Below, in pieces: positions 2,022-44,598 of a stretch of 45,151 nucleotides of DNA. The notes under the pieces were generated by a model that searched no databases, was not told the origin of the DNA, and saw nothing but the letters and a program-made list of their open reading frames with translations. Position numbers and translations under genes: made by a program. Source of the stretch: a virus. Every line of letters starts with the position of its first letter. The first letter of the stretch is position 1. The stretch spans positions 1 to 45,151 of IMG/VR virus record IMGVR_UViG_3300031576_000099, one strand, 5' to 3'.

Positions 2022-3461
2022 TCACGTTTCAGCCAGGTCATAGCGTCCTGATGCTGGGTAATACACATATTCCCGCGTTCCAGGGGTGCCGATGATGTCA
2101 TGATAACGGGACTTGGCAATTTTGATCTTTGTGCGTGATCCGTCCCTGTAAACGACAATGCCCACATCAGGTTTGTTGTACCAATGGGCACTGTCACTGA
2201 TGTCATAGAGGGTGGGCACGGCCAGCTTGTCATCTTTGCCTGTTCGCTGCGGTTTTGAGGGGTGCGCGGCAATGATCAGATGCACCTGGTGCTTCCTGGC
2301 AAACTTGCGGAATTGTTTGATGGCATAGCCTGTGTATTCGGTTAAGGACATGTCCATGGGCCTGATGTGATCCATTTCGTTCCAGGGATCTATGACCACA
2401 ATTTTTGCGCCGTGTCTGACCACAGCTGCTGAACATTTTTCCAGCACCCATTCCAGGGAAACGTCATCTTCATCCGATGGCACCAGGAAGCTGAAATGGT
2501 CATCAATCCAGCGTTCTGCTTCTGGTTCACCGACCATCAGGGCACCTGGCCTGTTCAGATACCATTTGACCAGGTTGCGTTTGTGATCCACAGCCGGATG
2601 CTGTTCAAAGCTGGCAAAGGCCACATTGACCTTCAGGTTTTCGACACAGCGGCAGCACATGTCATTCAGGAAGGTGGATTTGCCGTGGCCAGGTATGCCT
2701 GTGACCACCACCATGTCACCCCATCGGATGCGGTAGTGGTTATCCAGGCCAGGGAAGCCTGATTTAAGCGCTCTGGTTTCCGGTGGCGGTGGAAGTTCGG
2801 AAAGTTTATAAACACCGTCCACGGCCAGCCATTTTGCCCTGGCAATGGTTTCTGTGATCCCACGGTGTGAATATTTGACCAGGACTTCATTCAGATCCTT
2901 GGTGCCTTTGGGATAGGCCAGGTATTTGCACCTGGTCTTGCCCAGCCTTAAAGCCAGGTCATGCAGCAGATTGGCACCAGTGGCATCACCATCAGCCGCA
3001 ATGATGATTTCCTTGCAGTCTTTGATCAGGGGCAGGACTTCATCCAGGAAGCTGTATTTGATCGTTTCTTCATTACCGATGGCCTGGGCAGGGGCACCAT
3101 CGGGCACGGATATGGTTCTGACAAAACCGCACTGGATGGCGCTGATGGCATCAAATTCACCTTCCGTGATGATCAGGGGCATTTCTGCCAGGGTGGGATC
3201 CAGCAGGCAGTCAAAGTTCCAGACCACCTTGCTGGCATCTTTGTCCTGGTGCATCTGCTTTTCACCGCTGATGGTGCGGTGTTTGTGATTTACGACATCA
3301 CCGCGCTGCAGATACGGTATAGATACCCATTCACACCCACGTTTGAAGTTTCCGGTTATTCCCAGCCTTGCCAGCAGTTCGGGATCCATCTGCCTGTCTT
3401 CGCAAAGGATTTTTTGGGCGTTTGCTGTCAGGCTTGTGCTGGGTAGGGGCATTTGGGACAT
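2022..3461 (-). CDS. TOPRIM primase-helicase (T7 gp4B/Twinkle-like)
   Basis: A 479-residue replicative primase-helicase counted from the ATG at 3461. TOPRIM primase motifs are visible: TEGE at about 99-102, AADGD at about 155-159 and KGTKDLNE at about 185-192. A RecA/DnaB-type hexameric helicase domain follows, with Walker A GIPGHGKST at about 255-263, Walker B KIVVIDPWNE near 353-361, an AAHPSKPQ segment and a C-terminal SRYHDIIGTPG segment. It should unwind the fork and prime lagging-strand synthesis. The start at 3461 has an AAGGAAAACGCC leader. The frame stays open 28 codons further upstream and overlaps the separate zinc-finger ORF by 131 bp. The product from 3461 resembles T7 gp4B (no zinc finger); a frameshift from the upstream ORF would give a gp4A-like full-length enzyme. 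Confidence 0.93.
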   Translation of the reverse strand: MSQMPLPSTSLTANAQKILCEDRQMDPELLARLGITGNFKRGCEWVSIPYLQRGDVVNHKHRTISGEKQMHQDKDASKVVWNFDCLLDPTLAEMPLIITEGEFDAISAIQCGFVRTISVPDGAPAQAIGNEETIKYSFLDEVLPLIKDCKEIIIAADGDATGANLLHDLALRLGKTRCKYLAYPKGTKDLNEVLVKYSHRGITETIARAKWLAVDGVYKLSELPPPPETRALKSGFPGLDNHYRIRWGDMVVVTGIPGHGKSTFLNDMCCRCVENLKVNVAFASFEQHPAVDHKRNLVKWYLNRPGALMVGEPEAERWIDDHFSFLVPSDEDDVSLEWVLEKCSAAVVRHGAKIVVIDPWNEMDHIRPMDMSLTEYTGYAIKQFRKFARKHQVHLIIAAHPSKPQRTGKDDKLAVPTLYDISDSAHWYNKPDVGIVVYRDGSRTKIKIAKSRYHDIIGTPGTREYVYYPASGRYDLAET

Positions 3462-3681
3462 GGCGTTTTCCTTTTTTGGGGTCTGTGAAACTTCCACCGT
3501 GCCAGCCGCAATTATGGCAGCGCCACAAGATGCCTTCAGCATCAATTTTTACGGACAGGCAGGGATCTTTCTTTTTTTTGCGCGTGTGGCTGCAGCGTGG
3601 GCAAACGCATTTCTGGTGGCCCATACGGTATGACCTGGCGCGGATGTGCTGTTCATTCAGCAGGTCTGAAATGGAAATCAT
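3331..3681 (-). CDS. Primase zinc-binding domain (frameshift partner of helicase)
   Basis: A 116-codon ORF. Its first ~65 residues form a primase zinc ribbon: KCVCPRC (Cys 25, 27, 30) and LWRCHNCGWHGG (Cys 55, 58). In T7-like primases this module reads the priming site and sits at the N-terminus of the same polypeptide as the TOPRIM-helicase. Here the helicase lies in the +1 frame. The last ~46 residues of this ORF are Arg/Lys-rich, look like an out-of-frame reading, and overlap the helicase coding region. The run CCC AAA AAA GGA at the point of divergence would allow a +1 shift into the helicase frame. Whether the short protein, the fusion or both are made cannot be told from sequence; a sequencing indel in the A run is the alternative. 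Confidence 0.85.
   Translation of the reverse strand: MISISDLLNEQHIRARSYRMGHQKCVCPRCSHTRKKKKDPCLSVKIDAEGILWRCHNCGWHGGSFTDPKKGKRHVPNAPTQHKPDSKRPKNPLRRQADGSRTAGKAGNNRKLQTWV
3472..3481 (-). other. Homopolymer frameshift site between primase zinc finger and helicase
   Basis: On the minus strand the sequence reads GACCCCAAAAAAGGAAAACGCCATG in two pieces: C4A6 at 3481-3472, then GGAAAACGCCATG. Codon AAA followed by G permits a tRNA-Lys slip from AAA to AAG, moving reading into the helicase frame (+1). The A6 run could also cause transcriptional slippage. Deletion of one A would fuse the two ORFs exactly. Confidence 0.6.
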
Positions 3682-4697
3682 AGCGCTGGTTCCTCTATGA
3701 CTTCACCGTGCTGGTCATACCAGGTGAAGGTTTCGTTATCGTATTTGAAACCGGATGCCAGGCGTTCTTCCTTCGTCATCTGGCTAAAGTCTTTGTCAGG
3801 GTCAGGCAGGGCATGGCCGTTAATTTTGCCGCTGTACACCCCTTCCAGGACTTTGCTGTAGGAACTTGGCTGCAGCAGGAAGTCCAGGCTGGCTTTCCAC
3901 CCACGGTCATTTTTTCCTGTCAGGAACGGTGACCTGGCGATATTGGCCAGGGCTGTTTTCCAGTTTGTCAGATCCTGGTCATCTTCCAGACGGACGCGCA
4001 GTTTTTTCTTCCTGTCATCTGTCAATGATTTCGCTACGGGCAGTTCCAGTTTTTTTGCCGTTTCGTTGTACAGATCAAACGCTGCCTTCACCGGATCCAG
4101 GACAGCTGCCTGGTCATGGCCGTTGCTGGCAGGCTGGGGTTCTTCACCAGGGGATTTTCCAATTTCATGAAACAGCCCGATTTGATGATCAGATTTTTCC
4201 TGTTCGCGTATATTGTTATTGTTATTGTATTGTTTATGTGTAGTGCGTCCAAAGCTGGATACCCTATCAAGTTCAGACCGAGTTTTTTCATTCAGCGTCC
4301 AGTCTTTGCCCTGTAAAGCCTTTGAAATATCAGCAAAACACAGGACTTTTAATTTTCCATCCGGTATTGATAGGGTATCAGAAATGATTTTTATGGCGTG
4401 TTTCGGGTTTTGGGGTGGGTTTACGTCAAGCCACGCATGGATGAATAGGTTATTTTCAGAGAAATCATAATTTATCAGCCCCACTTTTTCGACTGCTTCC
4501 AGGGCAGCCTTGCAGTCCTTTTCAGACCAGCCCATGTCCACCATCATATACCCTATCTGGTGCGTAAAAAGCCCAGCGGCATTGGCCTGTTTGCAGGTCA
4601 GAAGGTAAAGATAAAATAGCCTATGCCTTTCCAGCAGCGCATTGAATTTCTTGCTGTGCCAGATTGTAGTTTTGATGCGTGAAAATTCTCTAGACAT
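3678..4697 (-). CDS. Phage replication initiator-like protein
   Basis: A 339-residue protein counted from the ATG at 4697, which has an ACAGGGGATTGAA leader. The N-terminal ~100 residues look like a winged-helix domain (helices around LFTHQIGYMMVDMGWSEKDC and a wing near residues 80-90). The middle is Asn/Ser/Glu-rich and disordered (KQYNNNNNIREQEKSDHQ). The C-terminal domain carries the motif pattern LPVAKSLTDDRKKKLRVRL and then RSPFLTGKNDRGWKASLDF and LQPSSYSKVLEG, known from DnaD/DnaT-like phage replication proteins. This fits an initiator that loads the primase-helicase encoded directly downstream, with which it overlaps by 4 bp. The exact partner is inferred. Confidence 0.8.
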   Translation of the reverse strand: MSREFSRIKTTIWHSKKFNALLERHRLFYLYLLTCKQANAAGLFTHQIGYMMVDMGWSEKDCKAALEAVEKVGLINYDFSENNLFIHAWLDVNPPQNPKHAIKIISDTLSIPDGKLKVLCFADISKALQGKDWTLNEKTRSELDRVSSFGRTTHKQYNNNNNIREQEKSDHQIGLFHEIGKSPGEEPQPASNGHDQAAVLDPVKAAFDLYNETAKKLELPVAKSLTDDRKKKLRVRLEDDQDLTNWKTALANIARSPFLTGKNDRGWKASLDFLLQPSSYSKVLEGVYSGKINGHALPDPDKDFSQMTKEERLASGFKYDNETFTWYDQHGEVIEEPAL

Positions 4698-4698
4698 T

Positions 4699-4911
4699 TC
4701 AATCCCCTGTTTGCACTTTGTAATTTTTTGGTTCAATAACTTCGCCGCGCCAGTTCACCATGCACGGCATCACCGGAACGGCCTTGCCGGATGACAGATG
4801 CCGGATGTGACCACGCCGCCAGTGCGGTGTCACGGAACGGCCAGAATTGCCTTCATTAAGCGCGGCCCTTGCGCTGGCAAAGATCTTCCAGCATGGCAAA
4901 GCCCGTTTCAC
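4699..4911 (-). CDS. Small HWRRGH-motif protein, possibly a fragment
   Basis: A 70-codon frame whose last ~44 residues (TPHWRRGHIRHLSSGKAVPV, then MPCMVNW and a hydrophilic end) match a short motif common at the C-terminus of phage proteins, in the form PHxRRGHIRxLxSGKxVxV. The first ~26 residues overlap another small ORF (4856-4981) and may not be translated; a GTG at 4833 is an alternative start. The two frames would join with a single -1 shift near 4858, so this could be the tail of a broken or frameshifted gene. The function is unknown. Confidence 0.5.
   Translation of the reverse strand: MKRALPCWKIFASARAALNEGNSGRSVTPHWRRGHIRHLSSGKAVPVMPCMVNWRGEVIEPKNYKVQTGD
4701..4715 (-). promoter_or_regulatory. 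Conserved leader motif GCAAACAGGGGATT (copy 1)
   Basis: Directly before the replication initiator-like gene start (4697) the minus strand reads TGCAAACAGGGGATTGAAATG. The same 14 bases occur before the DUF1064 gene (7047-7060), and a variant precedes the plus-strand DUF932 gene (7168-7180). The AGGGGA part can serve as ribosome binding site; conservation of the upstream GCAAAC suggests a shared operator or translational control element. Confidence 0.45.
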
Positions 4912-9057: not shown

Positions 9058-9317
9058 ACGCTTTCCGTGAATTCTTCTGGCGCATGTTCCTGGTGGAAGG
9101 TGCCTGGTATTTTGTAGCCAGGACTGACCGGATGATTGTGCCCATGATCTGGAATGGCGTGGTGTTTGAAACGCGCCTGCAGGTGGTGGATCACAGCACT
9201 ATCTGGCGCGTCCTGAACCGCCTGCCTTCTGACTTCCGCGCCTATGAAGCGCAGCGGCCAGCTGGTGTCCCCATCTTCAGCCCACGCTTGGCTGCCTACG
9301 CAAACCAAAAATCCTGA
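9054..9317 (+). CDS. Hypothetical protein
   Basis: An 87-residue protein rich in aromatic residues at its N-terminus (FREFFWRMFLVEGAWYFVAR), followed by beta-like segments. There is no transmembrane helix of convincing length and no known family. It is coupled to the upstream gene by a 4-bp overlap. Confidence 0.6.
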   Translation: MNAFREFFWRMFLVEGAWYFVARTDRMIVPMIWNGVVFETRLQVVDHSTIWRVLNRLPSDFRAYEAQRPAGVPIFSPRLAAYANQKS

Positions 9318-9330
9318 AAGGAAAAACCCG

Positions 9331-10260
9331 ATGTTCATTGAATACAAAAAAACAAATTTCCGTGCTGATGCGCTGAAGAAAATTGAGCAGGCAAATGAAA
9401 TCATTGATGACATGCGAAGCCAGGGCTACACCCTGACCTTGCGCCAGCTGTACTATAAATTTGTTTCCAAGGATCTGATTGAAAACAGTGTGCCTTCATA
9501 CAAAAACCTGGGCAGCCTGATTTCCAAAGCCAGATATGCAGGACTGATTTCCTGGTCAGCGATTGAGGACAGAAACCGCACCGCGCACACCTATGAATAC
9601 GAGAATGAAGATGAACATGAAGCGCTGCGCGGGATTGAAACCTTCATCAGCCTGGACTTTTGGGCACGGCAGGAAGATTACATGGAAGTGTGGGTGGAAA
9701 AGGACGCGCTGATCAATGTCATTGAACGGCCCTGCCAGCGCCATTCCGTTCCACACATGGCCTGTAAGGGCAGCCTTTCTTCATCGGCAGCCTTTGAAGC
9801 TGGCAAGCGCTTTGCTGATGCTGCAGAACGCGGCAAACGCTGCACCCTGATTTACCTGGGTGACCATGACCCCACTGGCATTGACATCACCAGGGACAAC
9901 CAAGACCGCCTGGACATCTTTGCGCCGGAAGCCGGTGTGCATGTCCTGCGCGTGGCTTTGAATATGGATCAGGTGCAGAAATACAACCCGCCGCCTAATC
10001 CTGCCAAGGAAACGGACAGCCGCTTCAAAGGGTATGCCGCCAAATACGGTGACACCTGCTGGGAATTGGACGCGCTGGAACCTTCAGTCATTGAAGCGGT
10101 GATCACCAAGGAAATCAAAAAACGCATTGATACGGACATCTGGAATGACACGCTGCGTGAACAGACAGAAAAACGTGCGCTGCTGAAAGATCTGTACAAC
10201 CGCTGGGATGACATCAAGCCGCTGCTTCAGCAATGGCGCAATGAAGAAGGAGAAGAATAA
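9331..10260 (+). CDS. Topoisomerase VI-A/Spo11-like TOPRIM protein (Mini-A type)
   Basis: A 309-residue protein. Near the N-terminus TLRQLYYKF (RQLYY at 38-42) resembles the winged-helix motif of TopoVI-A/Spo11 that ends in the catalytic tyrosine. A TOPRIM domain follows: Glu123 in WVEKDAL and the acidic pair in YLGDHDPTGID (Asp178, Asp180), which normally hold Mg2+. Stand-alone TopoVI-A-like proteins without a GHKL ATPase B subunit are known from mobile elements as Mini-A; none of the neighbours looks like a B subunit. DNA cleavage or nicking with a 5'-phosphotyrosine link is the expected chemistry but is inferred. The start at 9331 has a GAAAGGAAAAACCCG leader; its stop overlaps the next ATG. 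Confidence 0.82.
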   Translation: MFIEYKKTNFRADALKKIEQANEIIDDMRSQGYTLTLRQLYYKFVSKDLIENSVPSYKNLGSLISKARYAGLISWSAIEDRNRTAHTYEYENEDEHEALRGIETFISLDFWARQEDYMEVWVEKDALINVIERPCQRHSVPHMACKGSLSSSAAFEAGKRFADAAERGKRCTLIYLGDHDPTGIDITRDNQDRLDIFAPEAGVHVLRVALNMDQVQKYNPPPNPAKETDSRFKGYAAKYGDTCWELDALEPSVIEAVITKEIKKRIDTDIWNDTLREQTEKRALLKDLYNRWDDIKPLLQQWRNEEGEE

Positions 10261-12606: not shown

Positions 12607-14262
12607 ATGAAATACCCGATACCTGAAGAAGTTTTTGACAATCATGTGGCCTTTGTGGGAAAGACCGGATCCGGCAAGACCGTGGCTGCCAAAGGCGCAG
12701 CTGAACGCCTGCTGGATAAAGGCAAGCGGATCTGCGCCGTGGATCCCACTGGTGTCTGGTGGGGCTTAAAATCCAAATATCCTGTGGTGGTTTTCGGTGG
12801 CAGGAAGGCAGACCTTCCGCTGAACGCCGCGCACGGCACCATCCTGGCTGAAGTCATTGGCACCACCAGCATGAACGCAGTCCTGGACACCAGCCTGATG
12901 ACGGTGGGTGAACGCACCAGGTTCTTCAAAGAATTTGCTGAAACGCTGCTGCGGAAGAATGAAAGCCCGTTGCATCTGTTCCTGGATGAAGCCCATGTCT
13001 TTGCGCCCCAGGGAAAGGTGCCGGATCCGCAAGCTGGCCAAATGCTTCACGCTGCAAACAACCTGGTCAGTCTCGGCAGATCCAGGGGCTTGCGGATTGT
13101 GCTGATCACGCAGCGGCCTGCAAAGCTGCATAAGGACAGCCTGACACAAGTGGAAACGATGGTGGCCATGCGGGTGATCGCGCCACAGGACAAAGCCGCC
13201 GTTAATGACTGGATGGGCGAATGGGATGCCGCTGGCAAAAGCAAGGAAATCATGGCCAGCCTGCCCAAACTTCAGACTGGTGAAGCGTGGCTGTATTCAC
13301 CGGAAGCAAATATTTTGAAGCCTGTGGAATTTCCGATGATCAAAACCTTTGACAGCAGTAGCGCACCAAAGGACGGAAAGCAGGCCAAGGTGCAGATGGT
13401 GGAAGTGGATCTGGCCGCGCTCGGTGAAAAGCTGAACAAAGCTGGTGCTGACATCCTGGCTGATGACCCGCGCACACTGAAGCGCCGGATCCATGAACAG
13501 GAACAGGAAATCAAAAAGCTGAAGGCGGCACCAGCTGTCCAGGCTGGCCCTTCCAAGGAAGAATTAAGCCAGATGCAGCAGGAAGCACATTCTGATGGCG
13601 TGATGCAGGGTCGCGTGGAAGGTTTCAAGGAAGCCATGCGCCTGGTGGTGGAAGCGGTGAACGGTGTGGGCCTGCCCGTTGCCTTTGGTGTGCCAGCAAA
13701 GGTGTCCAATCTTTCGCGCACAGTGTCCCAGGAAACGGCAAACCGCCAGCATAGGCAGCGCTTGGCCCAGGAACGTCCTGCAGCGCCAGCGCCTGAATAC
13801 AACGGTGAAAAGCTGGGCCAGTGTGAACAGAAGATCCTGAACGTCCTGGGGCAATTCGACCAGGGCCGCACCAAAAACCAGATTGCCATGCTGTCCGGTT
13901 ATTCATCCACCAGCGGTGGCTTCAATAACTCGCTGTCAAAGCTACGTACAAAAGGGCTGATTGAAGGCGCACCGATCATCAGGGCCACGCCCGATGGCAA
14001 AGCCCTGGCTGAATATGAACCGCTTCCTACAGGCCCAGGTCTGCTGGCGCATTGGGTGAATAAGGTGGGCCAGTGTGGTGGCAAGATCCTGGAAGTGCTT
14101 CACGCCACAGGCGGTTTGGGCATGTCCAAGGATGACATTGCAGCAGCTGCTGGCTACAGCCCCACATCAGGCGGGTTCAATAACAGCCTTTCAAAACTCC
14201 GCACCCTGGAATTGATTGAAGGCCGGAACCCTATCCACATCAGCCAGGACTTCTTCCAATGA
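12607..14262 (+). CDS. HerA/DUF87-family ATPase with duplicated C-terminal winged helices
   Basis: A 551-residue ATPase. Walker A FVGKTGSGKT lies at about 16-25 and Walker B LHLFLDEAHVF at about 122-132, followed by a GRSRGLRIVLITQRP arginine/sensor region, as in HerA and FtsK-like hexameric DNA translocases. Residues ~275-345 are helical and charged (coiled coil). The C-terminus carries two nearly identical units, GYSSTSGGFNNSLSKLRTKG and GYSPTSGGFNNSLSKLRTLE, about 87 residues apart, each the recognition part of a winged helix. HerA normally works with the NurA nuclease in DNA-end resection; no NurA homologue is visible, but a lambda-type exonuclease is encoded shortly downstream. The start has a GAAAGGACTGAACCG leader. 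Confidence 0.88.
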   Translation: MKYPIPEEVFDNHVAFVGKTGSGKTVAAKGAAERLLDKGKRICAVDPTGVWWGLKSKYPVVVFGGRKADLPLNAAHGTILAEVIGTTSMNAVLDTSLMTVGERTRFFKEFAETLLRKNESPLHLFLDEAHVFAPQGKVPDPQAGQMLHAANNLVSLGRSRGLRIVLITQRPAKLHKDSLTQVETMVAMRVIAPQDKAAVNDWMGEWDAAGKSKEIMASLPKLQTGEAWLYSPEANILKPVEFPMIKTFDSSSAPKDGKQAKVQMVEVDLAALGEKLNKAGADILADDPRTLKRRIHEQEQEIKKLKAAPAVQAGPSKEELSQMQQEAHSDGVMQGRVEGFKEAMRLVVEAVNGVGLPVAFGVPAKVSNLSRTVSQETANRQHRQRLAQERPAAPAPEYNGEKLGQCEQKILNVLGQFDQGRTKNQIAMLSGYSSTSGGFNNSLSKLRTKGLIEGAPIIRATPDGKALAEYEPLPTGPGLLAHWVNKVGQCGGKILEVLHATGGLGMSKDDIAAAAGYSPTSGGFNNSLSKLRTLELIEGRNPIHISQDFFQ

Positions 14263-43296: not shown

Positions 43297-44598
43297 TTAT
43301 GCTACTACGGCCCGATCTAAAAAACTACCGCCTGAAGATCCAGGGCTGGCTTCCACGCCGCCTTCCACAATTCCGGTGCCCTTGATGAAAAGTTCTGTCA
43401 TGCCCCAAACGCAGGCATCCATCCGGTCAGGGCTGCTTTCACCAGGCTTTCCGGTGAAGGTGGTCATCTGTTCTTCCAGGACAGGGAAATAGCCCACATG
43501 GTGGATCCGCTTATCTTCATACAGGCTGCTGACTGGTTCGGCCCTGACCATCTTGCCCTTGGTGGCGTGAACCAATTTGACAGGGACATCAGCATCAATG
43601 TTTTTGATGACGTTCTTCACCATGTCACCGCCCTGGTTCTTTTCAGCCACAATGAAATTGGCCTTGTGATCATAAAACAGCTTCACGGCTTTGCGGCCCC
43701 ACTCATTGGGGCTGTATTTATCGCTGGCATCTTCCATCACATAGCCGTGTTTGCGTTCATCCCTGCCGCATACGATTATTCCGGTTTCATTGCTTTCTTC
43801 ACTGTCAGATGAAACGGCAGGGTCAACAGCCACCACGGTTTTTTCCAGTTCAGGAATATCCTGGACGCGGTGTTCATCCAGCCACAGCTGCTTCCACAGC
43901 GCACCTTCAACTTCATCCAGCCATTCACCCATCAGGAAGCGCCTGCGCTGGCGGTTTGGCAGGCTGGCCAGGACTTCCAGGTATTTTTCAGACAGGTTTG
44001 CCTTGTTCCCATCAGGGTTCAGGCGCATTGAAACATAATCCTTTTCTTTTTTGGGTTCCCTGGATGTGGGATCTTCATGCTTCACGAAAAGGGAATAAGA
44101 CCAGTGCGTTTTAGGTGGCGGGTTGCAATCCAAATACATTTTGTTCTGCAGCGTGGTCTTTTGGGCAAGGCGGGTCAGCGCCGTGGTGAAGCCGTGATAT
44201 GAGATTTGAGAAATTTCATTCAGGAAGATGGTGGCATATTCATTGCCCAGGATTTTTTCCACGCGCTGGTGATCATCCAGACCGCCAAACCAGATTTCAC
44301 TGCCGTTTGGGAAGGTGATGAAAAGATCCGTTTTATTTTCCTTGTACGGGATCCCAGGCCACGCCAGCTTCATGACCGTGGGAAAGGTGTCATACCAGAC
44401 CGATGTTTTCAGGTGGGAAAGTTTCTGGCGCAGGATCAGATGCCTGGACTGGTCAGCCTTGAAAGCACGGACAGCCAAGGCATAACAAAACAGCGCGGTC
44501 TTTCCTGAACGTGATCCACCAAACAGCAGATTGAATGTGGCATCACCGCTGATCAGCTGGGTGGCAAGTTTCTGGTCATCGGTTTTCTTGAACGTCAC
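43297..44598 (-). CDS. terL: Terminase large subunit
   Basis: A 433-residue packaging motor. The ATPase has Walker A FGGSRSGKTALF at about 27-38 and Walker B ATIFLNEIS at about 125-133. The C-terminal RNase H-like nuclease shows TVVAVDPAVSSDSEE with the first Asp, a middle segment FIVAEKNQGGDMVKNVI and DRMDACVWGMTE with the last acidic residue. It cuts and pumps phage DNA into the head through the portal. It overlaps the small subunit by 4 bp. Confidence 0.94.
   Translation of the reverse strand: MTFKKTDDQKLATQLISGDATFNLLFGGSRSGKTALFCYALAVRAFKADQSRHLILRQKLSHLKTSVWYDTFPTVMKLAWPGIPYKENKTDLFITFPNGSEIWFGGLDDHQRVEKILGNEYATIFLNEISQISYHGFTTALTRLAQKTTLQNKMYLDCNPPPKTHWSYSLFVKHEDPTSREPKKEKDYVSMRLNPDGNKANLSEKYLEVLASLPNRQRRRFLMGEWLDEVEGALWKQLWLDEHRVQDIPELEKTVVAVDPAVSSDSEESNETGIIVCGRDERKHGYVMEDASDKYSPNEWGRKAVKLFYDHKANFIVAEKNQGGDMVKNVIKNIDADVPVKLVHATKGKMVRAEPVSSLYEDKRIHHVGYFPVLEEQMTTFTGKPGESSPDRMDACVWGMTELFIKGTGIVEGGVEASPGSSGGSFLDRAVVA

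Follow-up and report, generated by a model that had tools for sequence, protein, structure and literature searches.

The primase-helicase locus of this virus very probably consists of two independently started, overlapping genes, one for a putative zinc-binding subunit of the primase and the other for a gp4B-like primase-helicase, whose products would work in trans. The window analyzed here, a viral contig of 45,151 nucleotides (IMG/VR record IMGVR_UViG_3300031576_000099), carries the pair on its minus strand. The evidence comes from domain and fold comparisons, a survey of related loci, and codon-level controls on the region where the two genes overlap.

Organization of the locus

A sequence-only reading of this DNA had described a T7 gp4-like enzyme divided between a zinc-ribbon ORF and a TOPRIM-helicase ORF in +1 registers, with an unusually long overlap. 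Profile searches and re-examination of the coordinates bear out this description (Table 1). The ORF encoding the TOPRIM and DnaB-like domains spans positions 2022-3545 on the minus strand, with its frame already open above 3545, and is in the +1 frame relative to the zinc ORF.

Table 1. Coordinates of the split primase-helicase locus and its flanking gene in the window.
Feature	Positions	Strand	Basis
Putative primase zinc-binding subunit gene, 116 aa (zinc ribbon and basic C-terminal tail)	3331..3681	-	ATGA overlap with upstream gene; GAGG before ATG
Zinc-ribbon core CPRC...CHNC, residues 27-58	3508..3603	-	Invariant residues; confident model
Basic tail of the zinc protein, residues 63-116, largely out of frame within the helicase gene	3331..3495	-	Open frame, fixed stop and terminal aromatic above codon-shuffled and in-gene controls
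Out-of-frame overlap of zinc and helicase genes, 131 nt	3331..3461	-	
Predicted gp4B-like primase-helicase gene, 479 aa, without a zinc domain of its own	2022..3461	-	ATG at 3461-3459
TOPRIM (primase catalytic) domain	2880..3176	-	Pfam Toprim_2 above cut-off
DnaB-like helicase domain	2130..2768	-	Pfam DnaB_C above cut-off
Helicase ribosome site AAGGA, 7 nt upstream of the ATG at 3461, overlapping the A6GG run	3469..3473	-	
CCCAAAAAAGG, candidate slippery run, not conserved	3470..3480	-	
Replication-initiation (O-like) gene upstream, its stop overlapping the zinc-gene start as ATGA	3678..4736	-	phrog_345, E 4e-22

Each of the two ORFs has its own translational start, the helicase through its AAGGA site and the zinc gene through a GAGG element and ATGA coupling to the upstream gene. 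The earlier observation that the run acts as the helicase ribosome site is correct, this role being served by its GGA. The complete run CCCAAAAAAGG occurs once in the window against 0.08 expected, whereas A6 is ordinary there (75 matches vs 63 expected), and a longer run, A8, lies within the zinc-ribbon coding region at 3572-3579.

Elsewhere in the window, an ORF at 9244-10260 (+) matches the phage DNA topoisomerase family phrog_6247 (E 8e-106). Two further ORFs on opposite strands, at 12607-14262 (+) and 43297-44598 (-), match terminase large subunit families, the match of the former being limited to its N-terminal 231 residues.

The helicase protein

The window helicase ORF matches Toprim_2 (E 3.8e-8) and DnaB_C (E 2.7e-8) on one chain, and the TOPRIM acidic residues E100, E102, D104, D157, and D159 are invariant. 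By its domains and catalytic residues, this protein is a predicted T7 gp4-like TOPRIM-helicase. Positions 3-453 of the helicase profile align to residues 81-536 of T7 gp4, so the second gene starts at about the point where gp4B does, and the first gene corresponds to the T7 zinc domain. Unlike gp4A, the helicase chain lacks an N-terminal zinc domain, the zinc ribbon being encoded by the separate +1-frame ORF.

Distribution of the split among relatives

Searches with the helicase, plus a single one with the zinc protein, yielded 331 loci, which together with the window formed 184 clusters at 90% protein identity. The zinc finger lies in exactly the same register as in the window in 130 of these clusters and is fused in frame in 32. 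The other clusters comprise four scored in another register, ten without a match to the finger pattern, and eight in which the upstream sequence is too short. Among the four is L036, which an earlier scoring had placed in the common register; two of the ten, L038 and L041, carry a variant finger in the same register.

In 102 of the 130 split relatives, the last Cys is followed by a helicase start (ATG in 91) that has a Shine-Dalgarno match of at least 4; in many of the remaining 28, a start of this kind lies within the finger. A few, such as L007, L082, L086, L114, and L121, show no convincing helicase start after the finger. These belong to a subgroup (L007, L082, L085-L087, L114, and L121) that includes alphaproteobacterial members and shows no convincing start at this place; most of the subgroup share an ATG position inside the zinc finger, with none there in L114. 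The zinc frame continues to helicase residues 102-159 in 11 relatives (L050, L054, L093, L267, L269-L272, L277, L278, and L281), giving overlaps of several hundred nucleotides. In eight of these 11, the zinc stop falls at helicase residues 129-132. In L047 and L072, the helicase ORF extends to 1169 and 822 aa, respectively, and only query residues to about 266 were matched at first; the helicase part of these two may have diverged or been joined to another domain.

One cultured split relative was found, Bradyrhizobium phage BDU-MI-1 (L333, KY940711), whose zinc ORF lies upstream of the helicase at 2357 and shares with the window both the register and an Arg-rich tail. It differs in that its record annotates the helicase only, leaving the zinc ORF unannotated. 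Homopolymer runs are error-prone, and a split at such a run could in principle reflect misread bases or gene decay confined to this contig. The recurrence of the register across 130 clusters, and in a cultured phage besides, contradicts this explanation, to which we attach practically no probability.

Fold and identity of the zinc-ribbon protein

Across 49 zinc-protein relatives, residues C27, P28, C30, R34, C55, and C58 are invariant. AlphaFold2 modeled the zinc ribbon with confidence (pLDDT above 90 over about residues 1-66) and the tail as disordered (pLDDT 55-60). The nearest solved fold to the zinc model is the T4 gp61 primase in the primosome (8dvf_H, prob 0.93, E 0.18), and phage primases lead the structural matches to viral models, with all primase fold matches at E above 0.01. 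At the sequence level, the primase profile phrog_47 matches weakly (E 4e-4 for the window protein and 2.7e-8 at best), and Pfam Zn_ribbon_DnaG was matched in two of the 49 members, the window protein not being one of them. No Pfam primase model was matched by the window zinc protein, a profile search of it against solved structures returned a chance-level ribosomal match alone, and a direct search with its sequence recovered one locus only.

Zinc ribbons are common, and the product of a real, dual-coded zinc-ribbon gene might instead be another DNA- or RNA-binding protein, such as a replication regulator. The weak primase profile matches lend this reading some weight, as do L089 and L092, in which no finger adjoins the helicase. 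Against it, the zinc protein sits where the zinc domain lies in the fused relatives and in T7, T4 gp61 and viral primases head its structural matches, and the helicase retains the TOPRIM catalytic residues, which leaves a non-primase function unlikely. The zinc ORF product would thus be a primase zinc-binding subunit acting in trans on a gp4B-like hexamer.

Selection on the dual-coded tail

The sequence-only reading had treated the Arg/Lys-rich segment after the A6 run as out-of-frame text. The survey indicates instead a tail that is maintained across relatives, with a positive net charge in all 113 of the 113 tails ending at helicase residues 38-48. To separate the coding content of the two frames, helicase codons were shuffled synonymously according to the codon usage of each gene, so that the helicase protein is preserved and the coding content of the other frame is lost (500 shuffles). 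As the +2 frame of these genes exceeds the openness expected from shuffling in several other windows too, regions outside the overlap in these same genes served as a second control.

The first zinc-frame stop falls at helicase residues 38-48 in 113 of 130 split relatives, compared with a null mean of 15.8 and maximum of 30, and only one stop was observed before residue 38 vs 76 under the null. In the in-gene control, a stop lies in the 11-residue window in 114/130, vs a mean of 44 elsewhere and 83 in the best other window. The zinc frame is open over helicase residues 20-42 in 107/121 (z 9.8; other same-frame windows up to 5.2), and the signal persists among 67 relatives under 60% identity (overlap window z 8.3; other windows up to 5.0).

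The end of the tail is likewise distinctive. W, Y, or F precedes the zinc stop in 71/113 relatives, as against 192 of 2441 other stops of that frame (8%); a terminal W was observed 54 times vs 15 in synonymous shuffles, and W occurs within the last 14 tail residues in 98/113. The terminal residue varies, as the window tail, which ends QTWV, illustrates. At helicase Leu33, where the codon CTT writes W in the tail, CTT is used in 25/54 vs 7.1 expected (p 3e-9), and no enrichment of CTT is found at helicase Leu29 or Leu30. Two relatives with little or no overlap keep a basic tail: in L047, where the genes lie apart, it ends RVKRSF, and in L003, with the stop of the zinc gene at the helicase start, it ends KRGW.

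Could the tail be mere read-through to the first chance stop, its apparent conservation imposed by the helicase frame? A conserved helicase N-terminus would impose some pattern on the other frame, and the zinc frame is generally somewhat open in these genes. The helicase-preserving shuffles, however, give the stop in 16 rather than 113 relatives and the terminal W in 15 rather than 54, and the L047 tail is basic with an aromatic end despite the lack of overlap. Chance read-through is thus contradicted by both the shuffles and the in-gene controls, and we consider it most improbable. Taken together with the Leu33 codons and the tails of L047 and L003, these controls identify the tail as protein sequence under selection. 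Both frames of the overlap appear to be under selection, and by this codon-level evidence the locus is a dual-coding gene pair.

Proposed frameshifting at the A6 run

The sequence-only reading had further proposed that the two ORFs are joined by frameshifting. Under this proposal, a programmed +1 (or -2) frameshift at CCCAAAAAAGG would fuse the zinc finger to the primase-helicase, so that one gene yields both gp4A-like and gp4B-like forms. The registers fit, re-pairing at CCC-A and AAA-G is conceivable after a +1 slip, and T7 makes both forms, though via internal initiation (PMC12593628). A slip that joins the frames predicts a shared slip site and a helicase frame kept open upstream of its start.

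Comparison with homologous loci upheld one half of the earlier expectation, in that the split and its register are kept, and not the other, in that the run is not: A6 or longer occurs between the last zinc Cys and the helicase start in only 4 of 102 relatives. CCCAAAAAAGG itself is present at the junction in the window only, with an extra copy in L047 far from the junction. Helicase-frame stops between the last zinc Cys and the start were found in 16/102 relatives vs 11.7 under a null of synonymous shuffling of the zinc frame, and the helicase frame before its start therefore shows no stop avoidance; in L132 and L240, a helicase-frame stop immediately precedes the ATG. No RNA structure stood out downstream of the run in the window (z = +0.42), and the helicase has a strong start of its own. 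A slip at the conserved zinc-gene stop was also considered and is unlikely, as UGG, the commonest codon at the preceding position (54/113), is unable to re-pair following a +1 slip. With the tail itself under selection as well, production of a full-length enzyme by frameshifting is very unlikely, and two independently started genes remain the favored account.

Proposed mechanism and comparison with known systems

According to this account, the first gene would encode a separate zinc-binding primase subunit with a basic tail that has an aromatic end in most relatives, and the second a gp4B-like primase-helicase whose own ATG and ribosome site lie within the first gene. The end of the first gene is dual-coded, its two frames spelling out the tail and the helicase N-terminus, respectively. 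The zinc subunit would join the hexameric primase-helicase in trans and, by analogy with the zinc domains of T7 and T4, may recognize the priming site. Ribosomes translating the first gene would pass over the internal ribosome site, which could couple or limit the supply of the second gene product.

The domain order in T7 gp4 is the same as here: zinc ribbon, RNA-polymerase/TOPRIM, and DnaB-like. Its 56-kDa form, gp4B, is initiated internally, as is the helicase here, and the start used has a separate ribosome site (PMC12593628); 4A and 4B, the latter in frame, are both annotated in the T7 record. In contrast, gp4A is one covalent protein whose short form is in frame, whereas the present locus has a separate zinc protein with a dual-coded tail and no predicted fused form. 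T7 gene 4.1 (L337, 526-648), an annotated ORF within the 4A zinc-domain coding region with a 4-nt overlap between its end and the 4B start, may offer a parallel as regards translational coupling.

In T4, the source of the nearest solved fold, the zinc domain of gp61 is linked to the polymerase domain and the gp41 helicase is separate, whereas here the cut falls between the zinc and polymerase domains. Docking of the T4 zinc domain on the helicase is mediated by a motif immediately following the zinc ribbon (PMC10359460); this motif serves as the model for the role proposed here, in which the tail may dock the zinc subunit on the helicase. Given a tail that is disordered in the model and variable in sequence among relatives, this docking role is a guess.

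The fused relatives (L053, L058, L062, and 29 more clusters, including Flavobacterium and Cellulophaga phages) encode the same enzyme with the zinc ribbon in frame upstream, in a single ORF, and form a clade apart from the split lineages.

Evolutionary history and significance

In a FastTree tree rooted with T7, the fused relatives form one fully supported clade; with T7 included, on its very long branch, the split/fused state requires two changes. The split likely arose when a linker frameshift broke up a fused gene, and the tail created by read-through would then have been retained. In a wider and tentative picture, which we regard as plausible but somewhat short of probable, a widespread phage lineage cut its primase between the zinc and polymerase domains, and the trans-acting zinc subunit is held to the hexamer by a basic, aromatic-ended tail overprinted on the N-terminus of its partner. 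Our search of the open-access literature returned no earlier description of this kind of split primase.

The locus offers a clear phage example of a gene overlap that is old, fixed, and under selection in both frames, and it indicates that a replication protein can escape annotation by being encoded within one. In the known phage models, T7 and T4, the zinc domain is covalently joined to the priming domain, and for T4 a contribution of this tether to the measuring of primer length has been proposed (PMC10359460). A natural lineage in which the zinc domain is untethered would make the primer-length idea directly testable.
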